Shown: positions 9,293 through 36,436, counted from the stretch's first letter. The stretch: DNA of 56,456 nucleotides from Frankiales bacterium (GCA_025965475.1 JAOPWV010000168.1:1-56456); one strand, 5' to 3'. A program made the numbers and translations. The notes: generated by a model from the sequence alone, not told the origin.

Positions 9293-9327
9293 CTGGGTGT
9301 TCCAGGAACCGGTGTTCCAGAGAGCCG

Positions 9328-9385
9328 GCCGGCCACCCGAAGCCCTTCCACGCAGTGGAAGGGGGCTGGACCCCGGGTGGCCGGC
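9328..9385 (+). terminator. Long stem-loop after the YaaH-type gene
   Basis: Nested inverted repeats: outer arms GCCGGCCACCCG (9328-9339) and CGGGTGGCCGGC (9374-9385), inner arms CCCTTCCAC (9343-9351) and GTGGAAGGG (9355-9363) with a 3-nt loop. The arms are perfect. The run of T afterwards is short, as usual for actinobacterial terminators. It separates the transporter from pobA. Confidence 0.75.
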
Positions 9386-9442
9386 GGGGTTCCCTTGTCG
9401 CCGGCCGGGCCGTTCCGCGCCGACGGGTGAAGGAGTCGGCGC

Positions 9443-10624: not shown

Positions 10625-10637
10625 GGCGTCCCGCATA

Positions 10638-10653
10638 GGAGAACGGTTTCTCC
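10638..10653. promoter_or_regulatory. GGAGAA-N4-TTCTCC palindrome upstream of the Rieske oxygenase
   Basis: Perfect 6-bp arms GGAGAA (10638-10643) and TTCTCC (10648-10653) around CGGT, 14 bp after the pobA stop and about 100 bp before the Rieske gene start. The size and symmetry fit a regulator half-site pair. The neighbouring IclR protein is the obvious candidate; this is inference. Confidence 0.35.
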
Positions 10654-10749
10654 ACCGGAGATCGCCGCGCGTCTAGCGTCCGGAATGTTGCGGCCAGGTT
10701 CACGCCGTCGGGCGTGGGGCGCGAGGCCGCCGGGAGGAGTGCCCAGCGG

Positions 10750-12015: not shown

Positions 12016-12221
12016 TGACCGCGGTCGGCCGCGGGGTGGCGGCCGGGGTGCGCGCGCGGTTCTGCCCGCTGTGCGGCGCCGACCTCGACCAACCGCGCGG
12101 GTTCTGCCACGAGTACTGGGCCGGGACGGATCGGCGCTTCCTGCTCTGGTGCCCCGACTGCGGCGGTACGACGTTGGCGACGATCCCCGCCCGGCTGACG
12201 TCGTACGAGCCGGAGCACTGA
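12015..12221 (+). CDS. Small zinc-ribbon protein coupled to the Rieske oxygenase
   Basis: 68-aa protein whose ATG shares its A with the TGA of the Rieske gene (TGATG), so it should be made in step with the oxygenase. It has two Cys pairs, CPLC (about residue 18) and CPDC (about 46), spaced like a rubredoxin-type or zinc-ribbon fold, and a conserved-looking patch of aromatic residues between them (GFCHEYWAG). There is no known family I can name. It might be a maturation factor, a small electron carrier (rubredoxin-like, although the usual CxxCG spacing is only partly met) or a subunit. Function unassigned. Confidence 0.65.
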   Translation: MTAVGRGVAAGVRARFCPLCGADLDQPRGFCHEYWAGTDRRFLLWCPDCGGTTLATIPARLTSYEPEH

Positions 12222-12233
12222 GCCCGGCGTCGG

Positions 12234-13034
12234 CTACTGCCGGCTGTAGCCGAGTCTCCGGGAGACCACGGCGGCCGCCTCGGTGACGATGCCTGCGAGA
12301 GCCGGCACCGTGGACGGGGCCAGGCGGACGGTCGGCCCGACGAGGGAGATCGCCGCGAGCGCGCCGCCGTCCGAGGTACGGATCGCGGCGGCGACGCTCG
12401 TCACGCCGTCCTCCGATTCGCCGAGGTTGACGCCGTAGCCCTGCGTCCGGACGCGGACGACCTCCCTGCGGAGCGCGGGCAGGTCGCGGATCGTGCGCTG
12501 GGTGCGCACCGGCAGCTCCCAGTCGGCGAGCAGGTCGTCGACGGCGTCGTCGGCCAGCTCGGCGAGCAGCACCTTGCCGGTGGAGGTGCAGTGCACCCAG
12601 TTGCGGTGGCCGACCCGGCGGAAGATCTGCAGGGCGTGCAGCGACTCGAGGCGCTCGACGTACACGACCTCGCGACCGTCCCGCACGGCGATCTGCACCG
12701 ATTCGCGGGTCTTCTGCCGTAGCGACTCGAGCACCGGCATGGCCGCCTCGTGCAGCTGCTTGTGTATCGGTACCGCGGTGCCGAGGTCGTACAGGCTCAG
12801 GCCCAGCCGGTACTGGCCGGTCTCGGCGTTCTGCTCGAGGAACCGCTCACCGACGAGGGTCGACGCGAGCCGGTGCACGGTGCTCTTGCCCAGCCCCAGC
12901 CGCCGGGCGAGCTCCGAGATCCCGAGCTCGGTCGGCCCTCCGCGGAACTCCTTGAGCAGGCGCGCGGCGTTGGTGACCGAGCCCAGTGGAGGGGTGCCCG
13001 ACGCTCTCGGGCGACGGGGGCCCGGGGTCGGCAT
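12234..13034 (-). CDS. IclR-family transcriptional regulator
   Basis: 266-aa regulator. The N-terminal winged helix (about residues 20-85) includes LGISELARRLGLGKSTVHRLASTLV, and the C-terminal effector domain (about 95-265) includes VQIAVRDGREVVYVERLES and the usual small-molecule pocket region with TSTGKVLLAEL. It is divergent from the phosphotransferase operon (121-bp gap) and convergent with the Rieske/zinc-ribbon pair, so it most likely controls one or both. IclR proteins in aromatic clusters usually bind an intermediate. The start at 13034 places the HTH at the usual distance; an upstream start at 13169 would invade the next gene. Confidence 0.9.
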   Translation of the reverse strand: MPTPGPRRPRASGTPPLGSVTNAARLLKEFRGGPTELGISELARRLGLGKSTVHRLASTLVGERFLEQNAETGQYRLGLSLYDLGTAVPIHKQLHEAAMPVLESLRQKTRESVQIAVRDGREVVYVERLESLHALQIFRRVGHRNWVHCTSTGKVLLAELADDAVDDLLADWELPVRTQRTIRDLPALRREVVRVRTQGYGVNLGESEDGVTSVAAAIRTSDGGALAAISLVGPTVRLAPSTVPALAGIVTEAAAVVSRRLGYSRQ

Positions 13035-13078
13035 GCCGTGACGGTACCCGGGGACCGTCCCGCATGGGGGAACGCATG

Positions 13079-13106
13079 CTTGTGGGGGGACGGGCCGCCC
13101 CACAAG
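13079..13106. promoter_or_regulatory. Candidate IclR operator between iclR and the phosphotransferase operon
   Basis: Perfect 9-bp inverted repeat CTTGTGGGG (13079-13087) / CCCCACAAG (13098-13106), centre spacing 10 bp, located in the 121-bp divergent intergenic region. The placement 50 bp ahead of the operon start and 45 bp ahead of the regulator start suits autoregulation plus control of the operon. Seen directly; protein assignment is inferred. Confidence 0.5.
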
Positions 13107-13155
13107 GTGCTCGCAACGGCGGCGCAATGGTGCGGCGCTTCTCCTTGGAGGACAC

Positions 13156-14934
13156 ATGGCCACGGTCATCCCGGTGGACGACTACGTCACCGACGAGTGG
13201 TATCCCGGCTTCCGGCCGGCCTTCGACCACGCGCCGTTCGTGATCGAGCCGTTCCGGACCTTCTCCAAGGCTGACGAGGAGCGCTTCTGGTTCCTGGACT
13301 TCCACTGGCCGCGTGGCCTCACCCCCCTCGGGCTCATCTGGAACGAGGACGGCTACGGCTGGGGCACCCAGCTGGCCGCCGAGAACATGCCCCTGCCTCC
13401 CGGCCGCGGCATCACCCAGCGCATCGCCGGCACCCACACCTACGCGGCGGCCATCGCGGTCGAGACCGAGGCCGAGATGGGTCTGCGCGCCGCGCGACTC
13501 ACCGGCTACCTGCCCGACTTCCTCAACCGCTTCGACGAGATCTGGGCCGAGCGGGTCGCCGAGGTGGACCGCTCCTGGCAGTTCTTCCGGGCCGTCGACT
13601 GGTCGGTGCCGGACCTGCCGGCGCTGGGCCAGCTCGCCCGGCAGGCCCGCGCGTTCCACAAGCGGGCCTTCGAGATCCACTTCGAGGTGATGTACCCGCT
13701 GCTCGCGAACTACCTGGGCTTCTACGGGGTCTGCGTCGAGTTGGGCGTCGACACCACGCAGATCGGCAAGTTCCTCCAGGGCTACGACACCAAGATCATG
13801 GAGACCGACCGTGAGCTCGGCCGCCTGACGAAGGAGGCCCGGGACCACGGGCTCGGCGAGCTGTTCGCGGTGACCGAGGCCACCCTGCTCTGGAGCACCC
13901 TGGAGGCCGACCCGGCCGCGAGCGCCTTCGTCGCAAGCTTTCGCGACTTCCTCGACGTGTACGGCTACCGCACGGAGGGCTCCTGCGACATCGCCCTGCC
14001 GAGCTGGATCGAGGACCCGACGCCCGCCCTCGGCATGATCAAGACCTTCCTGCAGAAGGAGGAGGACCACGACTTCTCCGTCGCCCTGACCGCCGCCAGG
14101 CAGGAGCGGGCGGACGCCATCGCCGCCGCCCGGTCCGGGCTCACCACGGAGGAGCAGGCCGTCTTCGACGCCGGCCTCGCCTCGTGCCAGGCCGCGAACT
14201 TCCCGTGGTGGCAGGACGACCACAACTACTACATCGACCTGCGGGTCTCGCTGCCGATGCGCTGGGCCTGCCTGGAGATCGCGAAGCGGATCGGCGCCGA
14301 GCGGCCGGACGACACCATCTTCCTGTTCTGGCCGGAGCTGATGGACGTGGCGGACGGCGTCCGTCCCTACGACGAGGAGCTGCGGGAGCTGGTCGTGCGG
14401 CGCCGCGCGTACTTCGACCACTGGCTGGCCAAGCGGCCCACCATGCCGAAGGTCCTCGGCACCATCCCCGAGGCGGTCGACGACCCGATCCTCATCGAGA
14501 TCTTCGGTCTCAACTCGCACTTCCTCAACGCAGTCAAGGCGGCCGGCTCCGGCGCCGAGATCAAGACCCTGACCGGCGTGGCCGCCGCGAAGGGCAAGGC
14601 GCGGGGCATCGCGCGCGTGCTGAACAATGCAGACGAACTGCATCGGATCCAGCCCGGGGAGGTGCTCGTGTGCGAGTCCACGTCGCCCAACTGGACGCCG
14701 GCGTTCGCCAAGATCGCGGCCTGCGTCTGCGACGGCGGCGGCACGCTGTCGCACGCCGCCATCGTCGGCCGCGAGTACGGCGTGCCCACGGTCACCGCGG
14801 TCGGCCTGGCGACGATGGTGATCAAGGACGGTGACGAGGTCGAGGTGGATGGGACGGCCGGCGTGGTCACGGTGCTGAAGGCGACGACGGCGGAGGTGCC
14901 ACACCAGAGTCCGCCCGTTCCCGTGGCGACATGA
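13156..14934 (+). CDS. Phosphohistidine subunit of a phenylphosphate-synthase-like dikinase (PpsA/CreH-HpeH type)
   Basis: 592-aa protein whose C terminus is the swivelling phosphohistidine domain of PEP-utilising enzymes: GGGTLSHAAIVGREYGVPTV with the carrier His at residue 533 (codon 14752-14754). The N-terminal 450 residues are the substrate-binding part found in phenylphosphate synthase alpha (PpsA, about 70 kDa), which transfers phosphate to a phenol. The next, overlapping gene supplies the separate ATP-binding subunit, so the enzyme is split exactly like PpsAB of Thauera, CreHI of Corynebacterium and HpeHI of Rhodococcus. GGAGG lies just before ATG 13156. First gene of a four-gene operon. 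Which protein binds phenol is known for the family; the actual phenol here is not known. Confidence 0.8.
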   Translation: MATVIPVDDYVTDEWYPGFRPAFDHAPFVIEPFRTFSKADEERFWFLDFHWPRGLTPLGLIWNEDGYGWGTQLAAENMPLPPGRGITQRIAGTHTYAAAIAVETEAEMGLRAARLTGYLPDFLNRFDEIWAERVAEVDRSWQFFRAVDWSVPDLPALGQLARQARAFHKRAFEIHFEVMYPLLANYLGFYGVCVELGVDTTQIGKFLQGYDTKIMETDRELGRLTKEARDHGLGELFAVTEATLLWSTLEADPAASAFVASFRDFLDVYGYRTEGSCDIALPSWIEDPTPALGMIKTFLQKEEDHDFSVALTAARQERADAIAAARSGLTTEEQAVFDAGLASCQAANFPWWQDDHNYYIDLRVSLPMRWACLEIAKRIGAERPDDTIFLFWPELMDVADGVRPYDEELRELVVRRRAYFDHWLAKRPTMPKVLGTIPEAVDDPILIEIFGLNSHFLNAVKAAGSGAEIKTLTGVAAAKGKARGIARVLNNADELHRIQPGEVLVCESTSPNWTPAFAKIAACVCDGGGTLSHAAIVGREYGVPTVTAVGLATMVIKDGDEVEVDGTAGVVTVLKATTAEVPHQSPPVPVAT

Positions 14935-15989
14935 CCGATCTGATCGCCTGGATGGACCAGGTCGCCCCGGACGCCGCGCTCGCGGTGGCCGGGCCGAAGA
15001 TGGGCCGGCTCGCCGAGCTCGGGCAGGCCGGGGTCCGGGTGCCCTACTCCTTCGCGGTCACCGTCGACGCCTTCCGCGCGCACTGCGACGAGCACGGGCT
15101 GGCCCAGAAGGCCGACGACATCCTGTCGGCGGTGGACGCGGCCGACAGCGCAGCCGTGGAAGCCGCGGCGCTGCGGGTGCAGGACGTCTTCCTCGCGGCG
15201 CCGCTGTCGGAAGCGCTCCGGCGCGGCATCGTCGAGGCGTACGACGAGCTGTCCGACCGCTGCGTCGACCTGAACGCCCCGGTCGCGGTGCGGTCCTCGG
15301 CGACGGGCGAGGACAGCGGTGCGGCCAGCTTCGCCGGAGCATTCGACACCTACCTCGGTGTCTCCGGACCGGACCGGGTCGTGGACGCCGTACGACGTTG
15401 CTGGGCGAGCCTGTTCACCCCCCGGGCCACCGCCTACCGCCTGCAGCAAGGGATCGACCATCGCGCCATGCCGATGGCCGTCGGGGTGGTGGAGCTCGTG
15501 CACGCCCGCTCTTCCGGGGTCGCGTTCTCGATCCACCCGGTGACCGGCAAGCGGGACCGACTGGTGATCGAGGCCAACTGGGGCTGGGGCGAGGCCGTCG
15601 TGCAGGGTCTGGTGACGCCCGACCACGTGGAGGTCGGCAAGGCGGACCGGCGGGTGCTGCGCTACGACGTGGCCGACAAGCGGGTCGTCTCCGCCTTCGA
15701 CTACGCGGTGGGGGCGGTCACGGAGGTGGCCATGCCGGAGCGGCTGCGGGAGCGGCAGGTGCTCGACGACGACGAGGTCGCCCAGGTCGTGGCGGCGGTG
15801 CTGCGGATCGAGGAGCACTACGGCTACCCCGTCGACGTCGAGTGGGTCGTCGACCGGCACCGGCGCTCGGGCGAAGCGGTCAGCATCGTGCAGACCCGCC
15901 CGGTCACGGTGGTCGCGGCTCCCGAACCGCCCAAGGTCTGGGACCCGACGGCGTTCGCGGCGAAGTACGCCCACGGCGGCGGCCGGTGA
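14931..15989 (+). CDS. ATP-binding (PEP synthase N-domain) subunit of the phenylphosphate-synthase-like enzyme
   Basis: 352-aa ATP-grasp protein with the pyruvate-phosphate-dikinase N-terminal fold. It has VRSSATGEDSGAASFAGAFDT (about residues 121-141, the nucleotide/phosphoryl region of PEP synthase) and ends with VQTRPVTV, the typical end of this domain. Its role is to use ATP to charge the His of the partner protein. The size fits PpsB (about 40 kDa). It lacks both the swivelling and the PEP-binding domains, so it cannot act as PEP synthase or rifampicin phosphotransferase alone. ATG 14931 overlaps the preceding stop by ATGA. No PpsC-like CBS subunit is seen in the window. Confidence 0.82.
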   Translation: MTDLIAWMDQVAPDAALAVAGPKMGRLAELGQAGVRVPYSFAVTVDAFRAHCDEHGLAQKADDILSAVDAADSAAVEAAALRVQDVFLAAPLSEALRRGIVEAYDELSDRCVDLNAPVAVRSSATGEDSGAASFAGAFDTYLGVSGPDRVVDAVRRCWASLFTPRATAYRLQQGIDHRAMPMAVGVVELVHARSSGVAFSIHPVTGKRDRLVIEANWGWGEAVVQGLVTPDHVEVGKADRRVLRYDVADKRVVSAFDYAVGAVTEVAMPERLRERQVLDDDEVAQVVAAVLRIEEHYGYPVDVEWVVDRHRRSGEAVSIVQTRPVTVVAAPEPPKVWDPTAFAAKYAHGGGR

Positions 15990-24192: not shown

Positions 24193-24842
24193 CCCTGTCC
24201 AGGGCGGACCTCGCCGAGCGGGTGGCCCTTGAGCTGCGGGACGGGCAGTACGTCAACCTCGGCATCGGCCTGCCGACGCTGATCCCGAACCACCTGCCCC
24301 CGGACGTCTCCCTCGTGCTGCACAGCGAGAACGGGATCCTCGCGGTCGGGCCGTACCCGAACCGCGACGAGCTGGACCCGGATCTGATCAACGCGGGCAA
24401 GGAGACGGTGACCGTCCTGCCCGGCGCCAGCTTCTTCGACTCCGCGGCCTCCTTCGGGATGATCCGCGGCGGCCATGTCGATGTCGCGGTGCTCGGCGCG
24501 ATGCAGGTGAGCGCCCGCGGGGACCTCGCGAACTGGATGATCCCGGGGAAGATGGTCAAGGGCATGGGCGGCGCGATGGACCTCGTCCACGGCGCCAAGA
24601 GGGTCATCGTGATGATGGAGCACGTCGCCCGGGACGGGTCGCCGAAACTGCTGGAGCGGTGCACCCTGCCGTTGACGGGCGCCGCCTGTGTCGACCGGGT
24701 CATCACGGACCTGGCCGTCATCGACATCACGCCGTTCGGCCTGGTCCTGCGCGAGACGGCACCCGGGGTGACGGCCGCCGAGGTCCGCGCGGCCACCGCG
24801 GCCGAGCTGACGGACGCGACACGGCCGCCGGTGCTGCCGTGA
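24189..24842 (+). CDS. pcaJ: 3-oxoacid CoA-transferase subunit B (PcaJ-like)
   Basis: 217-aa beta subunit. The catalytic Glu is in [13 protein letters not shown] (about residue 50), which forms the enzyme-CoA thioester in this family. Also typical are [13 protein letters not shown] and the end [27 protein letters not shown]. Full length for the family. Overlaps subunit A by ATGA and the amidase by GTGA. Confidence 0.87.
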
Positions 24843-26239
24843 CGGTGGCGAGCACGCGGCTCGACGGGCTGACCGCGCTGACGCTGACCGAGGTCGCCGG
24901 GCAGATCGCGAGCGGCGCGCTGTCGCCCATCGAGATCACGGACGCCTACCTGGCGCGCATCGACCAGGTCGAGCCGCAGGTGAACGCCTACGTCACGGTG
25001 TGCCACGAGCGGGCGAGGGCGGATGCCCGGCGCGCCGTCGAGGAGCGGGCGCGGGGCCTGGACCGCGGACCGCTGCACGGCGTCCCGCTGGGCATCAAGG
25101 ACCTGTTCGACACGGCAGGGGTTCGTACGACGGCCGGCTCGGGCCTGCGCAGGGACACCGTCCCGGCCCGTGACTCCGCGGTCGCGGCGCGCCTGCGTGC
25201 GGCCGGTTCCGTGTTGCTGGGCAAGCACGGGATGCATGAGCTCGCGTGGGGCGGCACCAGCGACAACCCTCACTTCGGGGCCGTCCGCAACCCGCACGAC
25301 CCGGCGCGCATCCCGGGCGGCTCGTCCGGTGGCTCGGCGGCGTCGGTGGTGGCGGGGACCGCGGTGGCGAGCGTCGGGACCGACACCTGCGGGAGCGTCC
25401 GCATCCCGGCCGCGCTGAGCGGCTGCGTGGGACTCAAACCGACGTACGGGCGGGTGAGCATGGCCGGCGCGGTGCCGCTCTCGGTGTCGCTCGACCACGC
25501 CGGGCCGATCACCCGCACGGTCGCGGATGCCGCGCTGCTGCTGGGGGTGCTCGCCGGACCGGACCCGGACGACCCGCGCACCCTGCACGAGCCGGTGCCA
25601 GACCTGCTCGGCCCGCTCGACGGGGAGGTCCGGGGACTGCGGATCGGCCGGCTGCGCGGCTGGTTCGAGCAGGTGCTCGACCCGGAGACAGGAGCCGCCC
25701 TCGACCGGGTCGCGGAGGTCCTGCGGGAGCTCGGCTGTCAGGTCATCGACCTCGTCGCACCCGATCCCGGTCCCGTCGTCGACCTGGTGTTCCGCCTGGT
25801 GGCGGCCGAGGCGGAGCCGGTCCACCGGGACCAGTTCGCCACGCGGCCGGAGGGCTTCGGTGAGGATCTCCGGCTGCACCTGTCGCGCCCGGCTCCTACG
25901 TCGGCGGAACTGGCCGAGGCGCGTGCGGTGCTGGCGGTCACGACCGACTGGTTGGACGCCGCCCTGCGCGAGGTGGACCTGCTGACCAGTGCCACCGTGC
26001 CCGCACCGGCCCCGCAGATCGGCGAGATGTCACTGCGGCTGGCTGATCAGGAGCTCCACGTCGAGTGGGTGCTCACCCGGCTGACGTCGATCTTCGACGT
26101 CGCAGGCCTGCCCGCGCTGTCCGTCCCCTGCGGCCGGTCCGCGCGCGGCCTGCCGCTGGGCCTGCAGGTGATCGGCCGGCGCCTCGACGAGGTCACGGTG
26201 CTCCGCCTCGGGCACGCGTACGAGACCGCTGGTGCGTGA
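24839..26239 (+). CDS. Amidase-signature hydrolase
   Basis: 466-aa amidase of the GatA/AtzE class. The Ser-cisSer-Lys triad is intact: Lys in [10 protein letters not shown] (about residue 86), cis-Ser in [10 protein letters not shown] (about 161) and nucleophile Ser in [12 protein letters not shown] (about 185). It hydrolyses an amide to acid and ammonia; the substrate is not evident. In an aromatic operon it may release an aromatic acid from its amide. GTG 24839 overlaps the CoA-transferase stop. Confidence 0.82.
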
Positions 26240-26291
26240 TCGTTCTACCGTGCTCCCACCGCCACCTCCCGACACCACGTACGGAGGCACC

Positions 26292-27149
26292 GTGACCACA
26301 CCCGGGACCCTGCTCTCCCAGGTCCTCGCCCAGCTGCAGGCCTCGCCCGAGCCGCGCATGCGCGAGGTGATGACCAGCCTCGTCCGTCACCTGCACGAGT
26401 TCGCGGCGGAGGTGCGCCTGACCGACCGTGAGTGGGCGGCCGCCGTCGGGTTCCTCACCGAGACGGGCCGGCTGCCCGAGCGCGACGAGTTCATCCTCCT
26501 GTCGGACACCCTCGGCCTGTCGATGCTCGTCGACCTGCTCGGCGGCCACGCTGCCGAAGGCGCCACCGAGACCACCGTGCTCGGGCCCTTCTACGTCCCG
26601 GACAGCCCGCGGCGCGGGAACGGCACAAGCACGGCCGAGCGGCCGAGCGGCGATCCCGCCTTCGTGAGCGGCCGGGTGCTGGGCACCGATGGCACGTCGA
26701 TCACCGGGGCCGAGGTCGACGTCTGGCAGAACGGCGCCGACATGATGTACGCGGTCCAGGACAAGACCATGCCGCCCGGCAACCTCCGCGGGCTGTTCAC
26801 CACGGACGACGAGGGACGGTTCTCCTTCCTCGGCGTCCGGCCGGTGGACTACCCGGTTCCCGTCGACGGCCCGGTGGGCCGGCTGCTCGAGGCCACCGGG
26901 CGCCATCCGTGGCGTGCCGCGCACCTGCACGCCATCGTGCGCGCCGACGGCTACCACCCGGTCACGACGCACCTGTTCGACGACGAGAGCCGCTACCTCG
27001 ACAGTGATGTCGTCTTCGGGGTGAAGCCCTCGCTCATCAAGCACTTCACGCCGCACGAGCCCGGGCAGCCGGACCGGCCGGCCGGTATCGGGCCGGCCGA
27101 GCGCTGGTACTCGCTCGACCACGACTTCGTACTCGTCCGCGCGACCTGA
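26292..27149 (+). CDS. Intradiol ring-cleavage dioxygenase, hydroxyquinol 1,2-dioxygenase-like
   Basis: 285-aa non-haem Fe(III) dioxygenase. The N-terminal helical domain (about 1-95) and ETTVLGPFYVPDSP (about 97-110) are typical of the hydroxyquinol/chlorocatechol 1,2-dioxygenase branch. The iron ligands expected are Tyr in PVDYPVP (about 200), Tyr earlier and His-x-His in AHLHAIV (about 220). Ring cleavage of hydroxyquinol gives maleylacetate, which is reduced to 3-oxoadipate and then activated by the CoA-transferase in the same operon. No maleylacetate reductase is present in the window, so it must lie elsewhere or the substrate is a catechol. GTG 26292 has GGAGG upstream. Confidence 0.85.
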   Translation: MTTPGTLLSQVLAQLQASPEPRMREVMTSLVRHLHEFAAEVRLTDREWAAAVGFLTETGRLPERDEFILLSDTLGLSMLVDLLGGHAAEGATETTVLGPFYVPDSPRRGNGTSTAERPSGDPAFVSGRVLGTDGTSITGAEVDVWQNGADMMYAVQDKTMPPGNLRGLFTTDDEGRFSFLGVRPVDYPVPVDGPVGRLLEATGRHPWRAAHLHAIVRADGYHPVTTHLFDDESRYLDSDVVFGVKPSLIKHFTPHEPGQPDRPAGIGPAERWYSLDHDFVLVRAT

Positions 27150-27173
27150 CCCGACCACACCGAGGAGAAGCCC

Positions 27174-28292
27174 ATGGCCCCCCGCACCGCGCCACCGTTC
27201 CGTGCCGACCACGTCGGGAGCCTGCTGCGTCCAGCCCGGCTGCTCGAGGCCCGCCAGCAGCACGCGGACGGCGCGATCACCGCCGACCAGCTACGGGAGA
27301 CGGAGGACGACGCGATCCGCGACGTGGTCCGGATGCAGGAGGACGTCGGGCTGCAGTCCTCGACGGACGGCGAGTTCCGGCGTACGTCCTGGCACATGGA
27401 CTTCATCTACCGGCTCGGCGGGGTCGGCCGGACCGACGAGAAGCTCACGGTGCACTTCCGCAACGAGCAGGGAGAGCTCGACTTCGAGTCGGCCGCCCTG
27501 CGGGTGCACGATCGGGTGACGCTGCAGGAGACGATCTTCGCGGAGGCGTTCTCGTTCCTGAAGGACACCGTGAAGACGGCGACCCCGAAGCTGACGATCC
27601 CCTCGCCGAACATGCTGCACTACCGCGGCGGCCGCGCGTCCATCGACGAGCAGGTCTACCCGGAGCTGGAGGCGTTCTGGGAGGACCTCGCGGCGGCGTA
27701 CGCCGAAGAGGTCCGCCGGCTGGGCGAGCTCGGCTGCACCTACCTCCAGCTCGACGACACGAGCCTGGCCTACCTCAACGACCCCAAGCAGCGGGACATC
27801 GTCCGCTCGCAGGGCGGCGACGCGGAACACCAGCACGAGCGCTACATCCAGCAGATCAACGCGTCGCTGGCCGGGCGTCCGGAGGGCATGAACGTCACCA
27901 CCCACATGTGCCGCGGCAACTTCCGCTCGTCCTGGGCGGCCGAGGGCGGCTACGACTTCGTCGCCGAGGCGTTGTTCTCGGAGCTGGACGTCGACGGGTT
28001 CTTCCTCGAGTACGACGACAGCCGTTCCGGGGGCTTCGAGCCGCTGCGGTTCGTGCCGCCAGGCAAGACGGTGGTGCTCGGCCTGGTGACCACCAAGCGC
28101 GGCGGGCTGGAGGACAAGGACACCCTCAAGCGCCGGATCGACGAGGCCAGCCAGTACGTCCCGCTCGACCAGCTGGCCCTCTCGCCGCAGTGCGGGTTCT
28201 CGTCCACCGTCGAGGGCAACGCGCTGACCTTCGACGAGCAGGTGGCCAAGCTCAGCCTGATCGTCGAGACCGCCGCGGAGGTCTGGGGCTAG
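27174..28292 (+). CDS. MetE-like cobalamin-independent methyltransferase family protein
   Basis: 372-aa protein of the short core-MetE type (YxjG/YxjH-like), half the length of MetE. The zinc-binding residues are visible: His and Cys in THMCRGN (about 243-249), Glu in FLEYDD (about 277) and Cys in SPQCGFSS (about 338-345). The N-terminal half of MetE that binds polyglutamyl folate is absent. It may transfer a methyl group to or from a small thiol. In this operon it could serve a demethylation step, but this is a guess. It overlaps the convergent RpiR gene end by 4 bp. Confidence 0.85.
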   Translation: MAPRTAPPFRADHVGSLLRPARLLEARQQHADGAITADQLRETEDDAIRDVVRMQEDVGLQSSTDGEFRRTSWHMDFIYRLGGVGRTDEKLTVHFRNEQGELDFESAALRVHDRVTLQETIFAEAFSFLKDTVKTATPKLTIPSPNMLHYRGGRASIDEQVYPELEAFWEDLAAAYAEEVRRLGELGCTYLQLDDTSLAYLNDPKQRDIVRSQGGDAEHQHERYIQQINASLAGRPEGMNVTTHMCRGNFRSSWAAEGGYDFVAEALFSELDVDGFFLEYDDSRSGGFEPLRFVPPGKTVVLGLVTTKRGGLEDKDTLKRRIDEASQYVPLDQLALSPQCGFSSTVEGNALTFDEQVAKLSLIVETAAEVWG

Positions 28293-29164
28293 TCCGTGGT
28301 GGCGCCCTGGAACGTGAGGTCGATCGCCTCCATACGCGCGGTGGCCTGCGGGCCCAGGCGTTCCAGGACGCCGGCCAGCACGGTCTCCACCACTGCTGTT
28401 GCCGGGACCAGGCTGTCGAACGGGCTGGCGCCCTCCACCCGGGACGGCAGGACGACGTCGGCCACCTCGGCGACGGGCGACAGCCAGGGGTCGGTGAACA
28501 GCACCACGGTCGCGCCGCGACGTTTGCTCTGCCGCGCCAGCTCGACGATGTCGCGCTGGTAGCGGCGGACGTCGAAGACGACGCAGACGTCGCGCCGGCC
28601 GAGGTCGGCGAGGAACGGCGCAGTCACCGAAGGCTGCACGTCCAGGGTCCGGGTCCCCGGCCGCAACAGCCGCAGGTGGAGGTCGAGGTAGTGCGCGAGC
28701 ACGTAGGAGAACCGGCCGCCGAAGCTGGTGATGCGGAGCCGGGGGTCGGTCAGCAGAGTGACGGCCGCCTGCAGTTCGTCCTCCGGCAGGGCATCCAGGG
28801 AGTTCTCCACCTGGCGGCCGAGCAACCGGCCGGCCGAGGTTCGCAGGTCCTCGCCCGCCCGGCTGCCCGAGGCGTCCTCCGGCTGTCCGGTCAGGGGCGA
28901 GAAGCTGCGCAGGGCCAGCTCCGCGCGCAGGGCGTCCTGGAACTCCCGGAAGCTGGCGTAGCCCAGTGAGGCCACGTAGCGCACGACTGTCGCCGTGCTG
29001 ACGTTCGCCTGGGTGCCCAGGCTGCTGGCCGTGTCCAGGCCGGCCGACGGGTAGCTGGCGAGCAGGGCCCGGGCGATCCGGCGCTCGGAGGCGGAAGCGC
29101 GCGTCAGCCCGTCCCGGACCCGGCCGGCCACCGAGACGAACCCGCTGTCCTGAGGGTCCTGCAT
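28289..29164 (-). CDS. RpiR-family transcriptional regulator
   Basis: 291-aa regulator: N-terminal HTH_6 domain (about 10-80, with ANVSTATVVRYVASLGYASFREF) and a C-terminal sugar-isomerase (SIS) domain (about 130-260, VCVVFDVRRYQRDIVELARQSKRRGA). The SIS domain binds a phosphosugar or related metabolite in known members. Start at ATG 29164 with GGAGGG ribosome site. Divergent from the GS-like operon, across a symmetrical element (29196-29250), so control of that operon is likely. Confidence 0.9.
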   Translation of the reverse strand: MQDPQDSGFVSVAGRVRDGLTRASASERRIARALLASYPSAGLDTASSLGTQANVSTATVVRYVASLGYASFREFQDALRAELALRSFSPLTGQPEDASGSRAGEDLRTSAGRLLGRQVENSLDALPEDELQAAVTLLTDPRLRITSFGGRFSYVLAHYLDLHLRLLRPGTRTLDVQPSVTAPFLADLGRRDVCVVFDVRRYQRDIVELARQSKRRGATVVLFTDPWLSPVAEVADVVLPSRVEGASPFDSLVPATAVVETVLAGVLERLGPQATARMEAIDLTFQGATTD

Positions 29165-29195: not shown

Positions 29196-29250
29196 TGAAA
29201 CAGACCATTCACGTGCCGGAGATTGACCGGCACTGGCAACGACTGTTTCA
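29196..29250. promoter_or_regulatory. Nested dyad element between rpiR and the GS-like operon
   Basis: Two concentric perfect inverted repeats share the centre 29223: outer TGAAACAG (29196-29203) / CTGTTTCA (29243-29250) and inner GTGCCGG (29213-29219) / CCGGCAC (29227-29233). TGAAA..TTTCA half-sites are usual for RpiR proteins (known for the family). The position between the two divergent starts suits an operator for the RpiR-like regulator. Confidence 0.55.
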
Positions 29251-29294: not shown

Positions 29295-30623
29295 GTGACC
29301 GGCGAGCTGCGGGGCGCATCGGGTCCTGAGGATCCGGCTCCAGGCCTGCTGTTCGCGGCGACCTGCGACCTGGTGGCGATCGTGCGCGGCCGGGCGGTGC
29401 CCGCCACTGCCGAGAAGGCCTTTCTCGATCGCGGCGTCGGCTGGGTGCCGGCCGACCTGGCCATGACCGGATTCGGCCACATCGCCGATGACAACGTCTT
29501 CGGCGCGGCCGGCGACCTCCGGCTGCTGCCCGACTCCGCCAGCGCCGTCGACATCGCCCCGGACGGGGAGGTCCCCGGCATGCGGGTGTTCCTCGCCGAT
29601 CAGGTCGAGGTGGACGGCAGCCCCTGGCCAGGCTGTCCGCGCGGCTTCCTGCGCACTGCCCTGCAGCGCCTGTACGAGGAGTACGGCCTGCGCGTGCTGG
29701 CCAGCTTCGAGCACGAATTCGTCGTGCACGGTGCCGGCGGCGACGCCTTCTCCCTGCAGAGGCTGCGGGGTGCCGAGCCGTTCGGCAGTGACCTGGTGGC
29801 CTGCCTCGAGCAGGCGGGCTTCGGGCCGGAGAACTGGCTGCCGGAGTACGGCAGTCAGCAGTTCGAGATCACGCTCGCCCCGGCGGACGGGCTGGTCGCA
29901 GCCGACCGCGCGATCCTGCTGCGCGAGCTCGTGCGCGACCTCGCGCGCCGGCGGGGACTGCGGACCAGCTTCGCCCCGATCCTGGAGCCGGGTGGGACGG
30001 GTAACGGCGTCCACGTCCACCTGTCGTTGATCGATGACGTGGGCGAGCCCGTACTCGCCGCACCCGGGCGGCCGGGTGGGCTGTCCGCGCTCGGCCAGGC
30101 CTTCTGTGACGGCATCGTCGCGCACGCCCCCGCGCTGTCCGCCATCGCGGCGCCGAGCGTGAACAGCTACCTGCGGTTGCGCCCCCACACCTGGAGCGCA
30201 GGCGGTGCGTTCCTCGCCGAGCGGAGCCGCGAGGCGTTGCTCCGGATCTGCCCCGGCCAGGGTCACCCGGCTGCGGCGGGCGGCGGGTTCAACCTCGAGT
30301 ACCGCGCAGCTGACGCCACCGCGAACCCGTGGCTCGTCCTCGGTGCCCTGGTCCACGCCGGGCTGGCCGGTCTGTCGGGGGAGTGCGTACCGACCCGGGT
30401 GTGGCCGCCAGAGGTCGACGTCGACCAGGCCGGGGCGGCCATCGCGCCGCTGCCGTCCTCCCTCGGCTCCGCGCTGGACGCGCTGGAGCGCGACGAGGTC
30501 GCCGTCGAGTGGTTCCCGCCGGTCCTGCTCACCACCTTCCTGTCCGTCAAGCGCGCTGAGCTCGACGAGTTGAGCGGCCTTGATGACGCGGCGCTCTGCC
30601 GGCGGGTGTCCGATGTCTACTGA
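29295..30623 (+). CDS. Glutamine-synthetase-like ligase (gamma-glutamyl amide synthetase candidate)
   Basis: 442-aa type-I GS-fold enzyme. Visible active-site pieces are the ExE motif FEHEFVVHG (about 130-140), the Glu region LPEYGSQQFEITLAP (about 182-196), the His region GNGVHVHLSL (about 235-245) and the NSYLRLRPHTWSAG loop (about 290). It is far from housekeeping GlnA in sequence and sits in an operon with an amidohydrolase and a glutaminase-type hydrolase. The likely reaction is ATP-dependent gamma-glutamylation of an amine, as in PuuA, IpuC and aniline TdnQ/AtdA1. GTG 29295 has the perfect site AGGAGGAG 6 bp upstream. Confidence 0.82.
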   Translation: MTGELRGASGPEDPAPGLLFAATCDLVAIVRGRAVPATAEKAFLDRGVGWVPADLAMTGFGHIADDNVFGAAGDLRLLPDSASAVDIAPDGEVPGMRVFLADQVEVDGSPWPGCPRGFLRTALQRLYEEYGLRVLASFEHEFVVHGAGGDAFSLQRLRGAEPFGSDLVACLEQAGFGPENWLPEYGSQQFEITLAPADGLVAADRAILLRELVRDLARRRGLRTSFAPILEPGGTGNGVHVHLSLIDDVGEPVLAAPGRPGGLSALGQAFCDGIVAHAPALSAIAAPSVNSYLRLRPHTWSAGGAFLAERSREALLRICPGQGHPAAAGGGFNLEYRAADATANPWLVLGALVHAGLAGLSGECVPTRVWPPEVDVDQAGAAIAPLPSSLGSALDALERDEVAVEWFPPVLLTTFLSVKRAELDELSGLDDAALCRRVSDVY

Positions 30624-31758
30624 CCTGGCGGAGGTGGTCGAGCACCTGCCGCTGGTGGACCACCACGTGCACGGCGCCAGCCGCTGCGACCTCGCTCGCG
30701 ACGAGCTGGCGTCCCACCTCACCGAGGCCACGCTGCCACCGCCGGCCGGCACCAGCCAGTTCGAGTCCCAGGTCGGGTTCGCGCTCCGGCGCTGGTGCGC
30801 ACCGCTGTTGGATCTGCCGGCGCACGCCGAGGTCGAGGCGTACGTGGCCCGCCGGGCCGAACTCGGTGCGGCGGAGGTCAACCGCAGACTGCTGGTCGCC
30901 AGCGGCATCGACCACTTCCTGGTCGAGACCGGCTACCGCGCGGACGAGATCTACGGCCCGGCCGAGATGGCGGCGGCGGCCGGCGCCCGGGCCGGCGAGC
31001 TGGTCCGCCTGGAGAGCGTCGCCGAGGAGCTGTCCCGCACCGGGGTCGGCGCCGGCGAGTTCGCCAGCCGCTACGTCGAGGAACTCTGGACGCGGACGAC
31101 GGCCGCCGTCGGGTTGAAGTCGATCATCGCCTACCGCCACGGCCTGGACTTCGCGCCCGAGCGGCCGGCACCGGACGCGGTGCGTACGGCGGCGGGCGCG
31201 TGGCTGGCCGAGATGGAGCGCACCGGCCAGGCCCGGATCAGCGACCCGGTGCTGTTGCGTCACCTGCTCTGGGCGGGCGTGGACCGCGGGCTGCCGCTGC
31301 AGTTCCATGTCGGCTACGGCGACCCCGACCTGGAGTTGCACCGATGCGACCCGCTGTTGATGACCGGGTTCCTCCGGGCGATCCAGCCTCGCGGGATCCC
31401 GGTCCTGCTGCTGCACTGTTACCCGTTCCACCGCCAGGCGGGCTACCTGGCGCAGGTCTTCCCTGACGTGTACCTCGATGTGGGGCTGGCCGTGAACTAC
31501 ACGGGCGCCCGGTCGGCAGCGGTGGTCGCCGAGTCGCTGGAGCTCGCGCCCTTCTCGAAACTGCTGTTCTCCACGGACGCGTGGGGGCCCGCGGAACTGC
31601 ACTACCTGGGCGCCCGCCTGTGGCGCCGCGCGTTCACCCGCGTCGTACAGCGGTGGATCGACGACGGCGATTGGTCGCCGGCGGACGCGGTGCGGGTGGC
31701 CGAGCTCGTCGGCTTCCGCAACGCGGAACGCGTCTATCAACTGGACGGCCCGCCATGA
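30613..31758 (+). CDS. Metal-dependent amidohydrolase (amidohydrolase_2 type)
   Basis: 381-aa TIM-barrel hydrolase. HxH is in VDHHVHGAS (about residue 17), a metal-binding His is in LQFHVGYGD (about 235), another is in LLHCYPFH (about 275) and the catalytic Asp is in LFSTDAWGP (about 328). The combination of such a hydrolase and a GS-like protein is like the two halves of fungal FluG. It overlaps the GS-like gene by 11 bp. Substrate unknown; it may cleave a gamma-glutamyl or ring amide. Confidence 0.8.
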   Translation: MSTDLAEVVEHLPLVDHHVHGASRCDLARDELASHLTEATLPPPAGTSQFESQVGFALRRWCAPLLDLPAHAEVEAYVARRAELGAAEVNRRLLVASGIDHFLVETGYRADEIYGPAEMAAAAGARAGELVRLESVAEELSRTGVGAGEFASRYVEELWTRTTAAVGLKSIIAYRHGLDFAPERPAPDAVRTAAGAWLAEMERTGQARISDPVLLRHLLWAGVDRGLPLQFHVGYGDPDLELHRCDPLLMTGFLRAIQPRGIPVLLLHCYPFHRQAGYLAQVFPDVYLDVGLAVNYTGARSAAVVAESLELAPFSKLLFSTDAWGPAELHYLGARLWRRAFTRVVQRWIDDGDWSPADAVRVAELVGFRNAERVYQLDGPP

Positions 31759-31798
31759 CCCGGGACGTCCTGAACGCCGTCGAAGGGGTGTGACGCCG

Positions 31799-32533
31799 AT
31801 GTGCCGGCTGCTGGGATGGGCCTCGCCCGAGCCCCTGAGCGCGACGGAGGTGGTGGGGGAGGACGCCGGCCGGCTGCACGCGCTGTCCCGGCTGCACCAG
31901 GACGGCTGGGGGGAGGCCTGGTACGAGCAGGGCGAGGTACGGCGGCGCCGCGAGATCGACGCCGCGCACGCCAGCAGCGTCTTCGCCTCGACGATCGAGC
32001 AGGTCCGGTCGCCGGTCGGGCTGGTCCATCTGCGGTGGGCCACCGACCACATCGCCCGCCGGCTCCCGAACACCCATCCGTTCGTCCACGACGGTGTGGC
32101 GTTCGCGCACAACGGGGCACTCAGGCGCGGCCCGCACCTCGACGCGCTGGTCGACGAGGACCTGCTGGCCGGCGCGGAAGGGGACACCGACAGCGAGCGC
32201 TTGTTCCTGGCGATCCTCACCGCGCGGCGTCGGACGGGATCCCTCGAAGGAGCCGTCGCGGACGTGATCGGGAGGCTCGACCCGGACTCGTGGAACTCGC
32301 TCAACTTCGTCCTGCTCGAGCCGGGCCGTCTGCACGCGCTGTGCTGCAACGACGCGGCCCGTCGTCCGGAGGACTCAGCACCGGACTACTTCCGGATGTT
32401 CTTCGAGACCACGCGCGCCTGCACCTCCGTGTGGTCGTCCGGCGTCCGCAAGCACACGGCCAGCGAGCTACCGAACCGGCACCTGCTCGGCGTCGACGTC
32501 ACGACGGGGGAGGTGCGACTCAGACCCGTCTGA
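31799..32533 (+). CDS. Class II glutamine amidotransferase
   Basis: 244-aa Ntn-hydrolase of the GATase_4/EgtC type. The start at ATG 31799 is chosen because it makes MCRLLGWAS the N terminus, so that Cys2 becomes the catalytic nucleophile after Met removal; a longer start would bury it. HLRWATDHIA (about 75) and HNGALRRG (about 100) are typical of the family. Known relatives include EgtC, which removes a gamma-glutamyl group. It probably hydrolyses a gamma-glutamyl amide made by the GS-like enzyme. A 12-codon reading frame (31755-31793) between the upstream stop and this start may help translational coupling. Confidence 0.85.
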   Translation: MCRLLGWASPEPLSATEVVGEDAGRLHALSRLHQDGWGEAWYEQGEVRRRREIDAAHASSVFASTIEQVRSPVGLVHLRWATDHIARRLPNTHPFVHDGVAFAHNGALRRGPHLDALVDEDLLAGAEGDTDSERLFLAILTARRRTGSLEGAVADVIGRLDPDSWNSLNFVLLEPGRLHALCCNDAARRPEDSAPDYFRMFFETTRACTSVWSSGVRKHTASELPNRHLLGVDVTTGEVRLRPV

Positions 32534-32595
32534 GCACCACGTCGGCCCGACCGGTCGACCCGCCCGCAGTCCTCCACCTTCATGAGGAGCACTCC

Positions 32596-34104
32596 ATGGC
32601 CCACCAACCCGTGCCGCAGCAAGGCGGCACCCTCCGTCGCGAACTGAAGATGTGGGAGGCCATCGGCATCTCCCTGGCGCTCATGGCCCCGTCGATGGCG
32701 GCGAACATCAACCCGCAGGGGACGGCCGGCACCGTGGGCCGGGCGGTCCCGCTCGCGTTCGCCCTCGCGACGGTCGGGGTGCTGCTGATCGCGTACACGT
32801 TCGTCCGGCTCTGCCAGCGGTTCCATCACGCTGGCAGCGTGTACGGCTTCGTCGGGGCGACCCTCGGGCCGCGAGCCGGTGTGGTCGCGGGGTTCGGCCT
32901 GCTCGGTACGTACATCTTCTACGGCGTCGTGACGTCCACGGCCGCCGGGATCTTCGGAGCGACGTTCCTCGACTCGCTGGGGATCTGGACACATCAGCCG
33001 GGGTGGGCGCCGTTCCTGATTTCGGCGATCGCACTGCTGGGCGTGTTCTACCTGGCCATCTCGCCGGTCCGCGGCGGCACCCGCATCCTGCTCGCGATCG
33101 AGGGCGTGACGGTCGTGCTCATCCTGATCGTCAGCGTGGTCATCCTGGTGCGCCTGCTGGCCGGGAACGCCCCGGGTGGCCACACGGTGGACTTCTCGGT
33201 CTTCTCGGTGCCGTCCGGCACCGGTGCGTCCGCGGTGTTCCTCGGCGTCGTGTTCGGGTTCCTCTCGTTCGCCGGGTTCGAGGCAGCGGCGACCCTCGGC
33301 GAGGAGGCGAAGGAGCCACGCAAGGACATCCCGCGCGCGATCCTCGGGACGGCGATCTTCGGCGGCATCTACTTCGTGTTCGTCACCGCCGTCGAGATGT
33401 GGGGCTTCGGCACCGACCAGAAGGGCGTCGAGGCCTTCATCGCGTCCGGGTCGTTGCTCGGCGACCTCGGCAGCGCGTACGTCGCGTCGTGGGTGGGCGA
33501 TGTGATCACCATCGGCGCCGCCATCAGCGCCTTCGGATGTGCCCTCGCGTGCGCGGTCGGAGCATCCCGGCTGCTGTTCGCGCTGTCCCGTGACGGGGTG
33601 GGTGCGGCGTCGCTCGGCACGCTGTCGCCGACCCGCGGCACCCCGGCCCGTGCCGCGGCCGCGGTTGTCGGCGCGATGTACGCCATCATCGCCGTCGCCT
33701 GGTTCGTCCTGCGCGCCAAGCCGTTCGACCTGTTCGTCGCCTCCGGCACGATCGGCACGCTGATCCTTCTGGTGGCGTACGCGCTGGCCACCATCGGCGC
33801 CGCCCGGCTGCTGTTCTTCTCCGGTCAGCGGGTGGTCGCGGCCTGGGAGGTCGTGATCCCGGGCCTCGCGCTGCTGTTGCTGGGCTACACGTTGTTCCGC
33901 AACGTCTGGCCCTATCCGTCCGCGGCCGCGGCCTGGTATCCCGCGCTGGCCGCGGCGTGGCTGGTGGTCGCCGTTCTTCTCGTCCTGGCCCGTCCGGCCG
34001 CGACCCGGCGGGCGGGTGAGCTGCTGACCGCGGACGAGGGGCTCCGGCCGGCCGGCCCGGATGGGCGCGGGCCGGTGGGAGCGCAGCCCGAGGCCGCGCT
34101 GTGA
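32596..34104 (+). CDS. APC-superfamily amino acid/amine permease
   Basis: 502-aa membrane transporter with about twelve helices. The first helix has ISLALMAPSMAANINPQGTAG, the usual APC start, and the sixth helix region has FLSFAGFEAAATLGEEAKEPRKDIPRA, the family signature. Likely imports an amine or amino acid that the upstream enzymes process. GAGGAG precedes ATG 32596. The C terminus overlaps the next gene by GTGA. Confidence 0.85.
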   Translation: MAHQPVPQQGGTLRRELKMWEAIGISLALMAPSMAANINPQGTAGTVGRAVPLAFALATVGVLLIAYTFVRLCQRFHHAGSVYGFVGATLGPRAGVVAGFGLLGTYIFYGVVTSTAAGIFGATFLDSLGIWTHQPGWAPFLISAIALLGVFYLAISPVRGGTRILLAIEGVTVVLILIVSVVILVRLLAGNAPGGHTVDFSVFSVPSGTGASAVFLGVVFGFLSFAGFEAAATLGEEAKEPRKDIPRAILGTAIFGGIYFVFVTAVEMWGFGTDQKGVEAFIASGSLLGDLGSAYVASWVGDVITIGAAISAFGCALACAVGASRLLFALSRDGVGAASLGTLSPTRGTPARAAAAVVGAMYAIIAVAWFVLRAKPFDLFVASGTIGTLILLVAYALATIGAARLLFFSGQRVVAAWEVVIPGLALLLLGYTLFRNVWPYPSAAAAWYPALAAAWLVVAVLLVLARPAATRRAGELLTADEGLRPAGPDGRGPVGAQPEAAL

Positions 34105-34826
34105 CTGCGACGGCCACGGACGTCGCGGCCGTCTTGGCTGGGCTGACGGTCGTCGACCTGACCCAGCCGTTGGGGCCGGACACGGTCCTGTGGCCGGGTG
34201 CGCCCAAGCTCGCCGCGGACGACGTCATCACCCGCGACGCGCACGGCTACTTCGCCCGGCTGGTCCACGTCTTCGAGCACGCGGGCACGCACTTCGACGC
34301 CCCGATCCACATGGTGGAGGGAGCGGCCCCGGTCGAGGAGGTGCCGGCGAGCACGTTGTTCCTGCCGGTGCGCTGCATCGACATCAGCGGCGACATCGCC
34401 GACGACGCGGACGCCGTGCTGACCGCCGGGCAGGTCCACCGGCACGAGGCGGAACACGGCCCGGTGCCGCCAGGTTCCGCCGTCTTCCTGCGGACCGGAT
34501 GGGAGACCCGGAACCGCGACGAGGCCGCCTACACCGGCGGTGCCGACGGCCTGCACTTCCCGGGCTTCGGGCTGGAGTCGGCGGAGCTGCTCGTCGCCGG
34601 CCGCGGTGTGGTCGGGCTGGGCATCGACACCCTCGGCATCGACGCCGGGTGCGCCCCGGAGTTTCCGGTGCACAAGAAGGTCTCGCACCCGCGGGGCGTC
34701 TGGCACGTGGAGAACCTCACGAACCTGTCGGCGCTGCCCGCGTCGGGGGCGTGGGTGTTCATCGGGGTGCCCGCGATCGTCGGCGCCTCGGGTTTCCCGG
34801 CGAGAGTGCTCGCCCTGGTGCCCTGA
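34101..34826 (+). CDS. Cyclase-family hydrolase (kynurenine formamidase-like)
   Basis: 241-aa metalloenzyme with the motif HAGTHFDAPIH (about 53-63), which is the HxGTHxDxPxH metal site of KynB and isatin hydrolase. A second conserved stretch is GIDTLGIDAG. It hydrolyses an amide or lactam ring in known members. GTG 34101 overlaps the permease stop. Its position at the end of the amine operon suggests that it acts on the imported compound. Confidence 0.82.
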   Translation: MTATATDVAAVLAGLTVVDLTQPLGPDTVLWPGAPKLAADDVITRDAHGYFARLVHVFEHAGTHFDAPIHMVEGAAPVEEVPASTLFLPVRCIDISGDIADDADAVLTAGQVHRHEAEHGPVPPGSAVFLRTGWETRNRDEAAYTGGADGLHFPGFGLESAELLVAGRGVVGLGIDTLGIDAGCAPEFPVHKKVSHPRGVWHVENLTNLSALPASGAWVFIGVPAIVGASGFPARVLALVP

Positions 34827-34996: not shown

Positions 34997-36436
34997 TCAG
35001 CGCAGGGTCGCCACCCGCAGCGTGGCCAGACCCGGATCGGCGGCGTACGCGACCCGGACGCCGTGTGCCCGCGCGGTGAGGAGCGCGTCGAGGACCTGCT
35101 CCGTGATGCGCTCGCCGGGAGCGAGCACAGGGACGCCCGGCGGGTACAGCGCGACGAGCTCGGCCGATACCTCGCCGACGGCGTCCCGGACCGCCACGGT
35201 GCGGGACGGCGAGAAGTAGGCGGTTCGCGGGTCGAGGACCTGCTCGGGCCGCAGGTCCCAACTGATGCTCGGCGCCACGTCACGCGGCGTACCCGCATGC
35301 CTGCGCAGTGAGGGGATCAGGACGTCGAGGAAACGCCCGGTGGTGTCCGCGTCGTCGGCGACGGTCACCATCGGCACGATGGTGTCGCGGTCGGCCATCT
35401 CCACCGGGACGCCGGCGGCGATGAGTTCCGCTTCGACGAGGACGCCGTCGGCGCCCGTGCCCGGCAGTACGAGGACGAGTTTGCAGGGATCACACCGACC
35501 GGCTCCGAACAGCTGCGCATCCGGGACGACCAGTCCTGGTACCTCGGCCAGCAACCGCCGGCGCATGCCATCCACGAGGTCGAGCAGCCGGCCGAGCAGT
35601 TCCGGTCCCCGCGTCTCCAGCAGGGCCCGGCAGGCGTCGATGCTGGCGAGTACGGATCCGGCAGGGCTCGTGGTGTGACCGGCTTCGAACGCCGTCTCCA
35701 GACGCTGCGGGTCGAGCAGCTCCGTGCGCGCCAGGACCAGGGCGCCCTGGCTGTACGCGGGTAGCGCCTTGTGCGCGGACGTGACGGCCGCGTCGGCCCC
35801 GAGGGCCAGCGCATGCGGCGGGAGGCCGGGGTGGAAGCCCAGGTGCGCGCCCCACGCCTGGTCGACGACGAGGGGGACGCCGTGCAGGTGGGCGAGCGCG
35901 GCGATCCGTGAGATGTCGGAGATCGCACCGAGGTACCCCGGTTCGGTGAGGAGTACGGCGCGCGCCGCGGGATGGGCGTCCAGAGCGGCGGCGACGTCGC
36001 CGATCGCGACCCCCAGCGGAAGCGCGGTTGCGGGATGGATCCGTGTCGGCAACCACACCGGCACGAGGCCGGCCAGCACCAGACCGAGCAGGGTCGACCG
36101 GTGCAGGCTCCGGGCCACGATGACCTCGTCGCCGGGACGGCCCAGAGCCAGACAGAGGGCCTGATTCCCGTGGGTGGAACCGCCACAGGAGAAGCGGCAC
36201 CAGTCGGCACCCCAGAGCCGGCCGGCCCGGGCCTCGGCGTCCGCCAGCCGGCCGCGGGAGAGCTTCGTCGTGTCGAGGCCGCCGTACAGCGGGACGTCCC
36301 CGTCGACCACCTGACCGAGACCCTGATCGAGCCGTCCGGCCCGGCGCTTGTGCCCGGGAATCGTGAAGGGCGCCGCGTCCGAGCGCAACGCGTCCAGGTA
36401 GGACGCGAGAAGCGGGGCGTCGTCACGCAGTGACAT
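34997..36436 (-). CDS. Orn/Lys/Arg decarboxylase family PLP enzyme
   Basis: 479-aa fold-type I PLP enzyme. The cofactor Lys is in TSAHKALPAYSQGA (about residue 221-234), and the N-terminal PGHK and the block GSTHGNQALCLAL (about 88-100) are family marks. The length is short for the inducible E. coli-type decarboxylases (about 715 aa) but normal for the Bacillus SpeA-like group. It would decarboxylate arginine, lysine or ornithine to a polyamine precursor. It is 25 bp after the GGDEF gene on the same strand, so it may be in its operon. Confidence 0.85.
   Translation of the reverse strand: MSLRDDAPLLASYLDALRSDAAPFTIPGHKRRAGRLDQGLGQVVDGDVPLYGGLDTTKLSRGRLADAEARAGRLWGADWCRFSCGGSTHGNQALCLALGRPGDEVIVARSLHRSTLLGLVLAGLVPVWLPTRIHPATALPLGVAIGDVAAALDAHPAARAVLLTEPGYLGAISDISRIAALAHLHGVPLVVDQAWGAHLGFHPGLPPHALALGADAAVTSAHKALPAYSQGALVLARTELLDPQRLETAFEAGHTTSPAGSVLASIDACRALLETRGPELLGRLLDLVDGMRRRLLAEVPGLVVPDAQLFGAGRCDPCKLVLVLPGTGADGVLVEAELIAAGVPVEMADRDTIVPMVTVADDADTTGRFLDVLIPSLRRHAGTPRDVAPSISWDLRPEQVLDPRTAYFSPSRTVAVRDAVGEVSAELVALYPPGVPVLAPGERITEQVLDALLTARAHGVRVAYAADPGLATLRVATLR

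Follow-up and report, generated by a model that had tools for sequence, protein, structure and literature searches.

A putative RpiR-controlled operon of a Frankiales bacterium pairs a predicted PA5508-type gamma-glutamyl-amine ligase with an EgtC-like class II amidotransferase

In several described systems, amines are handled as gamma-glutamyl derivatives by a glutamine synthetase (GS)-like ligase encoded with a permease and a deglutamylating partner. This is the case in the Puu clusters and in the glnA4 ethanolamine cluster of Streptomyces coelicolor (SCO1611-SCO1615; PMC6529630), where the partner is of the class I or formylglutamate-amidohydrolase type and is accompanied by genes for aldehyde dehydrogenase and SDR. 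A class II partner is found in the mgsABC-gmaS operon, in which MgsA is a GlxB-type amidotransferase (PMC6237917) that acts with MgsB and MgsC. Another association is that of a FluG-type amidohydrolase with a gamma-glutamyl ligase, fused in FluG of Aspergillus (PMC6478659) and encoded as the pair SCO6961-SCO6962 (glnA3) in S. coelicolor. Among the ligases, the gamma-glutamyl monoamine ligase PA5508 of P. aeruginosa (structure 4hpp) favours catecholamines and other bulky amines above linear amines (PMC6478659), and such enzymes have lost the formation of glutamine (PMC11335346). Finally, removal of a gamma-glutamyl group by a class II protein is known from EgtC, the ergothioneine gamma-glutamyl amidohydrolase (PMC9103826), which has EgtA as its partner.

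The window, that is the whole stretch of DNA analysed, consists of 56,456 nt from a Frankiales bacterium (GCA_025965475.1 JAOPWV010000168.1:1-56456). Gene calls and Pfam place five consecutive genes with the expected domains on the + strand at 29295-34826, in agreement with the operon described in the first-pass annotation. The first gene encodes a putative GS-like gamma-glutamyl-amine ligase of the PA5508 type (442 aa, 29295..30623, PF00120 and Gln-synt_N_2). It is followed by those of a FluG-N-type metal-dependent amidohydrolase (381 aa, 30613..31758, PF04909), an EgtC-like single-domain class II amidotransferase with Cys2 (244 aa, 31799..32533, PF13230), an APC-superfamily amino acid/amine permease (502 aa, 32596..34104, PF00324 and PF13520), and a putative hydrolase of the cyclase/kynurenine-formamidase superfamily (241 aa, 34101..34826, PF04199, motif HAGTHFDAPIH). 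The overlaps of 4-11 bp reported in the first-pass annotation are present at two of the four junctions, ligase/amidohydrolase (11 bp) and permease/cyclase (4 bp). The other two junctions are gaps, of 40 bp between the amidohydrolase and class II genes and 62 bp between the class II and permease genes, and no terminator-like site was found in the intergenic gaps of the operon. There was no match to a sigma-70-like promoter or to an RNA family. The class II gene is taken to start at ATG 31799, as only that start yields Met-Cys, with the cysteine at position 2; with the alternative GTG 31790, the nucleophile would be internal, at residue 5. The start codon of the permease gene is ATG 32596.

Divergent from the operon, a gene on the - strand (28289..29164) encodes an RpiR/MurR-family regulator with HTH_6 and SIS domains (PF01418, PF01380). 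It is part of the unit and forms its upstream end. The genes beyond it were not counted in the operon; they form a row at 24659-28292, just upstream of the RpiR gene, encoding an AtzE-like amidase, an intradiol dioxygenase and a MetE-like protein (PRK06520), and this row stands behind ABC transporter genes and a CoA transferase gene. Farther away, the region 9443-15989 looks like an aromatic catabolism block, with an FAD monooxygenase and a Rieske oxygenase with a LigXa-type C-terminus; after the oxygenase, a split gene pair encodes a protein with a PEP-utiliser domain and a PPDK_N protein. On the other side, a short Orn/Lys/Arg-decarboxylase-like PLP protein is encoded on the - strand at 34997-36436, convergent with the operon. 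Though on the opposite strand, it could be a supplier of amine.

The locus combines elements of the systems above. Like the Puu and glnA4 clusters, it contains a GS-like ligase, a permease and a candidate deglutamylating partner, but it has no PuuD-like class I protein, and neither aldehyde dehydrogenase nor SDR was detected in the operon with Pfam. Like Aspergillus FluG and SCO6961-SCO6962, it has an amidohydrolase/ligase pair. In contrast to FluG, the two are encoded by overlapping genes rather than one fusion, and class II, permease and cyclase genes are added. The GS-like ligase and class II amidotransferase within one operon recall gmaS-mgsABC.

The ligase scores 222.8 bits against PF00120 (cut-off 24) and falls under all NCBIfam equivalog cut-offs. 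Its closest solved relative is PA5508 (4hpp, E 3.8e-105), aligned over nearly the whole length of the ligase; the next match has an E-value of 1.2e-31, and true glutamine synthetases are far behind 4hpp. In the alignment, the two ammonium-binding positions that are Asp and Glu in glutamine synthetase are occupied by Val and Trp. The same replacement of both acids is found in PA5508, whereas the GlnA of the same genome retains Asp and Glu. The second ammonium site is Trp or Phe in every alignable GS partner of the class II family, as read with the L060 row left out. Loss of both ammonium-site acids supports the earlier proposal that the enzyme is GS-like without being a glutamine synthetase. 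This loss, together with the properties of the characterised enzymes (PMC6478659, PMC11335346), makes a ligase acting only with ammonia unlikely. As PA5508 prefers bulky aromatic monoamines, a bulky monoamine is a likelier substrate of its relative in the window than a polyamine. No class II partner is known to have been described for PA5508.

The class II protein consists of a single domain of the class II fold with an N-terminal cysteine, as does EgtC, and has no synthase domain. Residues C2, R79, A81, N105, G106 and D131 are invariant in 30 class II homologues, and W80 and T82 are nearly so. We take these residues to be the equivalents of the nucleophile and glutamine site of GlmS. The AlphaFold2 model (pLDDT 95.4) gave EgtC as the top match in VIA-align, with Z 26.6 and an rmsd of 2.1 over 212 aligned residues; GlmS and PurF ranked below with Z 20-24, so that EgtC stands above all synthase-bound amidotransferases. 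The EgtC-like, class II character assigned to this partner in the first-pass annotation thus holds. The protein is nevertheless not EgtC: identity is about 26%, the ligase partner has a GS fold where EgtC has EgtA, and the score against the curated EgtC model (TIGR03442) is 52.9 bits for a cut-off of 218.65, which no protein of the genome passed. With its intact glutamine site, the protein can probably hydrolyse glutamine. The simplest inference from a gamma-glutamyl pocket without a synthase domain is a gamma-glutamyl-amide hydrolase. That the class II protein instead hands an amine to a synthase, in an N-methylglutamate-type route as MgsA does, is very improbable. Such a route has the merit of a known operon in which a class II amidotransferase of the GlxB type accompanies a GS-like ligase (mgsABC-gmaS, PMC6237917), but the protein of the window is of the GATase_4/EgtC-like type, and no glutamate-synthase-like partner equivalent to MgsB or MgsC is encoded among the operon and neighbouring genes scanned.

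The linkage of ligase and class II genes was examined in genomes and contigs drawn by the class II protein alone; of the four class II members that made up the contig query (A2), two are immediate neighbours of a ligase. Of 110 loci, 79 have a GS-family gene no farther than 5.5 kb from the class II gene, as do 27 of 37 informative clusters at 60% identity. The chance expectation is about 2%, by our own arithmetic for five GS genes in a genome of 3.9 Mb, and the association is therefore not due to chance. The pairing pointed out in the first-pass annotation is thus conserved. With this linkage far above chance, and with the ammonium site of the ligase lost, a fortuitous neighbourhood or an ordinary glutamine cycle of glutamine synthetase and glutaminase is scarcely credible, even though the intact glutamine site of the class II protein would suit the latter.

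GS genes occur near the class II family in at least seven gene arrangements. They include adjacent GS and class II genes (L060, L061/L062, L074/L076, L080), the order class II-GS-amidohydrolase (L085), the order GS-amidohydrolase-SDR-class II (L051, L068, L070), and divergent GS and class II genes with RpiR and permease genes (L077, L078, L154). A search for the same five-gene order found none outside the window in the loci compared. The nearest is a four-gene unit, amidohydrolase-class II-permease-cyclase, which has no adjacent ligase (L059/L081/L082). In the genome of L059/L081, a PA5508-like ligase is encoded at another place, together with a FluG-type amidohydrolase of its own. The permease of the window is 65% and 55% identical to the class II-adjacent permeases of L059 and L060, respectively, and the cyclase is 66% and 53% identical to its counterparts. 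The class II copy of the window belongs to a clade (support 100/99) of eight representatives, six of which adjoin a GS gene. Within its own family the operon occurs only sporadically, as no class II homologue with more than 45% identity was found among 61 relatives. Other members of the class II family have different settings or lengths. The sole plasmid match, in Streptomyces sp. NBC_01176 (L079:4404-8753), follows immediately after an operon for a glutamate ABC transporter and has no ligase in its vicinity. Two homologues of 565-577 aa (L064:6778-8475, L065:8406-10139) are, from reading of the sequence, apparently transglutaminase-like fusions.

Homologues of the RpiR regulator (39-42% identity) are found beside the GS and class II genes in L077, L078 and L154. 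In the window, the 130-bp region between the RpiR and ligase genes contains a candidate operator, TGAAACAG at 29196-29203 with an inverted copy CTGTTTCA at 29243-29250, spaced by 39 bp. There are three matches to TGAAACAG in the window, for 0.29 expected, and two of the three are in this intergenic region. Within the window, the heptamer TGAAACA/TGTTTCA is found almost exclusively in the ligase promoter. It was first noticed there and then tested on other loci: L154 (Propionicicella superfundia, 18.7 kb), L077 (19.9 kb) and L078 (13.5 kb) each have a single copy, in every case between the ligase and class II genes, and L187 and L061, both with RpiR homologues, have none. Its presence in the window and these three loci supports a shared RpiR-controlled unit in four lineages, and we infer that RpiR binds the candidate operator.

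Whether the class II protein takes the place of a class I hydrolase was considered by comparison with the class I clusters. The genome of the window has five GS-family genes, one of them in a second gamma-glutamylation cluster (L173, G000:C124, 2654-9336), with genes for a PuuD-like class I hydrolase, a permease, a ligase, an aldehyde dehydrogenase, an SDR and a GntR regulator, in the layout of the glnA4 ethanolamine cluster of S. coelicolor. Given this separate cluster, the operon is not a mere displaced copy. The PuuD of this genome is on another contig, beside another ligase. A phmmer search of 30 loci of the GS/class II kind, the window among them, yielded neither a PuuD nor a GAT1 homologue.

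In the Nanopelagicaceae, a glnA4-type core adjoins a class II gene; identity to the corresponding proteins of the glnA4-type cluster of the present genome is 79% for its SDR, 73% for its aldehyde dehydrogenase and 67% for its ligase. Among 202 genomes with a glnA4-type ligase, PuuD is present in 163 of 181 outside this family, whereas in the Nanopelagicaceae PuuD is missing from 19 of 21 and the class II gene is present in 21 of 21. A clean swap of class II for class I was nevertheless rejected, as another class I protein, GAT1 (PRK07053-like), tracks the core better than class II does: it accompanies the ligase core in 30 of 30 Nanopelagicaceae loci and is lost in five of six core-less loci, in which the class II gene is retained. 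This suggests a separate role of class II in this family. Examples of the GAT1/class II setting are L144:3791-4567 and 8902-9741, and L189-L192 and L194, between trmD/desaturase and miaB. Several Planktophila genomes likewise have the class II gene without the ligase core, and the class II protein can therefore have a role without the ligase. The claim of replacement rests on the directly adjacent pairs of other lineages, and the argument is only partial.

The amidohydrolase has a full set of metal ligands (H18, H20, K169, H232, H268, D322), all invariant. The closest structure to its model (pLDDT 91.2) is LSEI_0440 (2qpx, Z 42.6; E 5e-45 by sequence), followed by uronate isomerases with Z around 25, and the enzyme may not be an amide hydrolase at all. 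LSEI_0440 can substitute for the N-terminal half of FluG (PMC6478659), and in the window an LSEI_0440-like amidohydrolase stands next to a PA5508-like ligase, as expected of a FluG-type pair. The cyclase has the HxGTHxDxPxH metal motif and belongs to the PF04199 superfamily only; with 39.9 bits for a cut-off of 223.05 against TIGR03035, it is far from KynB.

We consider it moderately probable that this is an RpiR-controlled operon handling an amine through gamma-glutamylated intermediates, with the EgtC-like enzyme doing the job of PuuD. The activities, the direction of flow and the order of steps are all predicted. After import of the amine substrate by the permease, the ligase would couple the amino group of this amine to the gamma-carboxyl of glutamate at the expense of ATP. 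Either the substrate or its glutamylated form would be the target of the amidohydrolase and cyclase. The N-terminal cysteine of the class II protein would then cleave the gamma-glutamyl amide, releasing glutamate and the product, a step performed by the class I PuuD in the putrescine pathway. According to Pfam, the operon encodes no dehydrogenase, oxygenase or aminotransferase, so that ligase and hydrolase alone would cycle futilely if neither the amidohydrolase nor the cyclase acted between them. The relatives of the amidohydrolase-class II-permease-cyclase part without adjacent ligase, in L059 and L081, speak against the proposed pathway.

Deglutamylation may instead be due to the FluG-type amidohydrolase, the class II protein being a glutaminase or having another role, which we regard as unlikely. 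In its favour, G183 (L186) and G319 (L187) pair a PA5508-like ligase with a FluG-type amidohydrolase without a class II gene, ligase and amidohydrolase correspond to the two halves of fungal FluG (PMC6478659), and the Planktophila genomes mentioned above keep class II without the ligase core. However, in L060, L061, L062, L074, L080 and L086 the class II gene adjoins the ligase gene and no such amidohydrolase was seen. The next-closest structures after 2qpx are uronate isomerases, and we know of no gamma-glutamyl hydrolase activity in the amidohydrolase family, which also counts against this assignment.

Quite unlikely, too, is that the class II protein serves as a safety valve, reversing the ligase reaction and averting the build-up of a toxic gamma-glutamyl amide rather than carrying out a forward step. 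An amidotransferase of aniline degraders converts gamma-glutamylanilide to aniline (PMC4539516), and the lack of an oxidising step between ligase and hydrolase in the operon would fit such a function. The chemistry would be the same as in the proposed pathway, only the role differing, but that the genes for transport, ligase, amidohydrolase and cyclase are constantly co-transcribed fits a forward route.

The first-pass annotation had presented the joining of GS-like ligase and class II amidotransferase as possibly new. In these general terms it has precedents, in gmaS-mgsABC (PMC6237917) and, for class II deglutamylation, in EgtC (PMC9103826). Each type of enzyme is known, from the gamma-glutamylation routes, EgtC and gmaS-mgsABC; their combination seems to make a new variant. 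No earlier description of the ligase/EgtC-like pairing was found in the literature searched, which left most subscription journals outside, and the pairing seems to recur, undescribed, across many actinobacteria. It may belong to a widespread actinobacterial branch of amine metabolism in which an EgtC-like class II enzyme replaces the PuuD-type release of glutamate and FluG-type amidohydrolases work inside the route, a generalisation that we hold as possible rather than probable. If it is true, FluG chemistry gains a bacterial model: the FluG-type amidohydrolase of the operon is accompanied by a ligase, a hydrolase, a transporter and a regulator, so that the substrate of FluG can be approached in bacteria. 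Searches based on ligase plus PuuD would overlook many actinobacterial clusters, some of them in abundant freshwater lineages, if the class II protein does deglutamylate amines.
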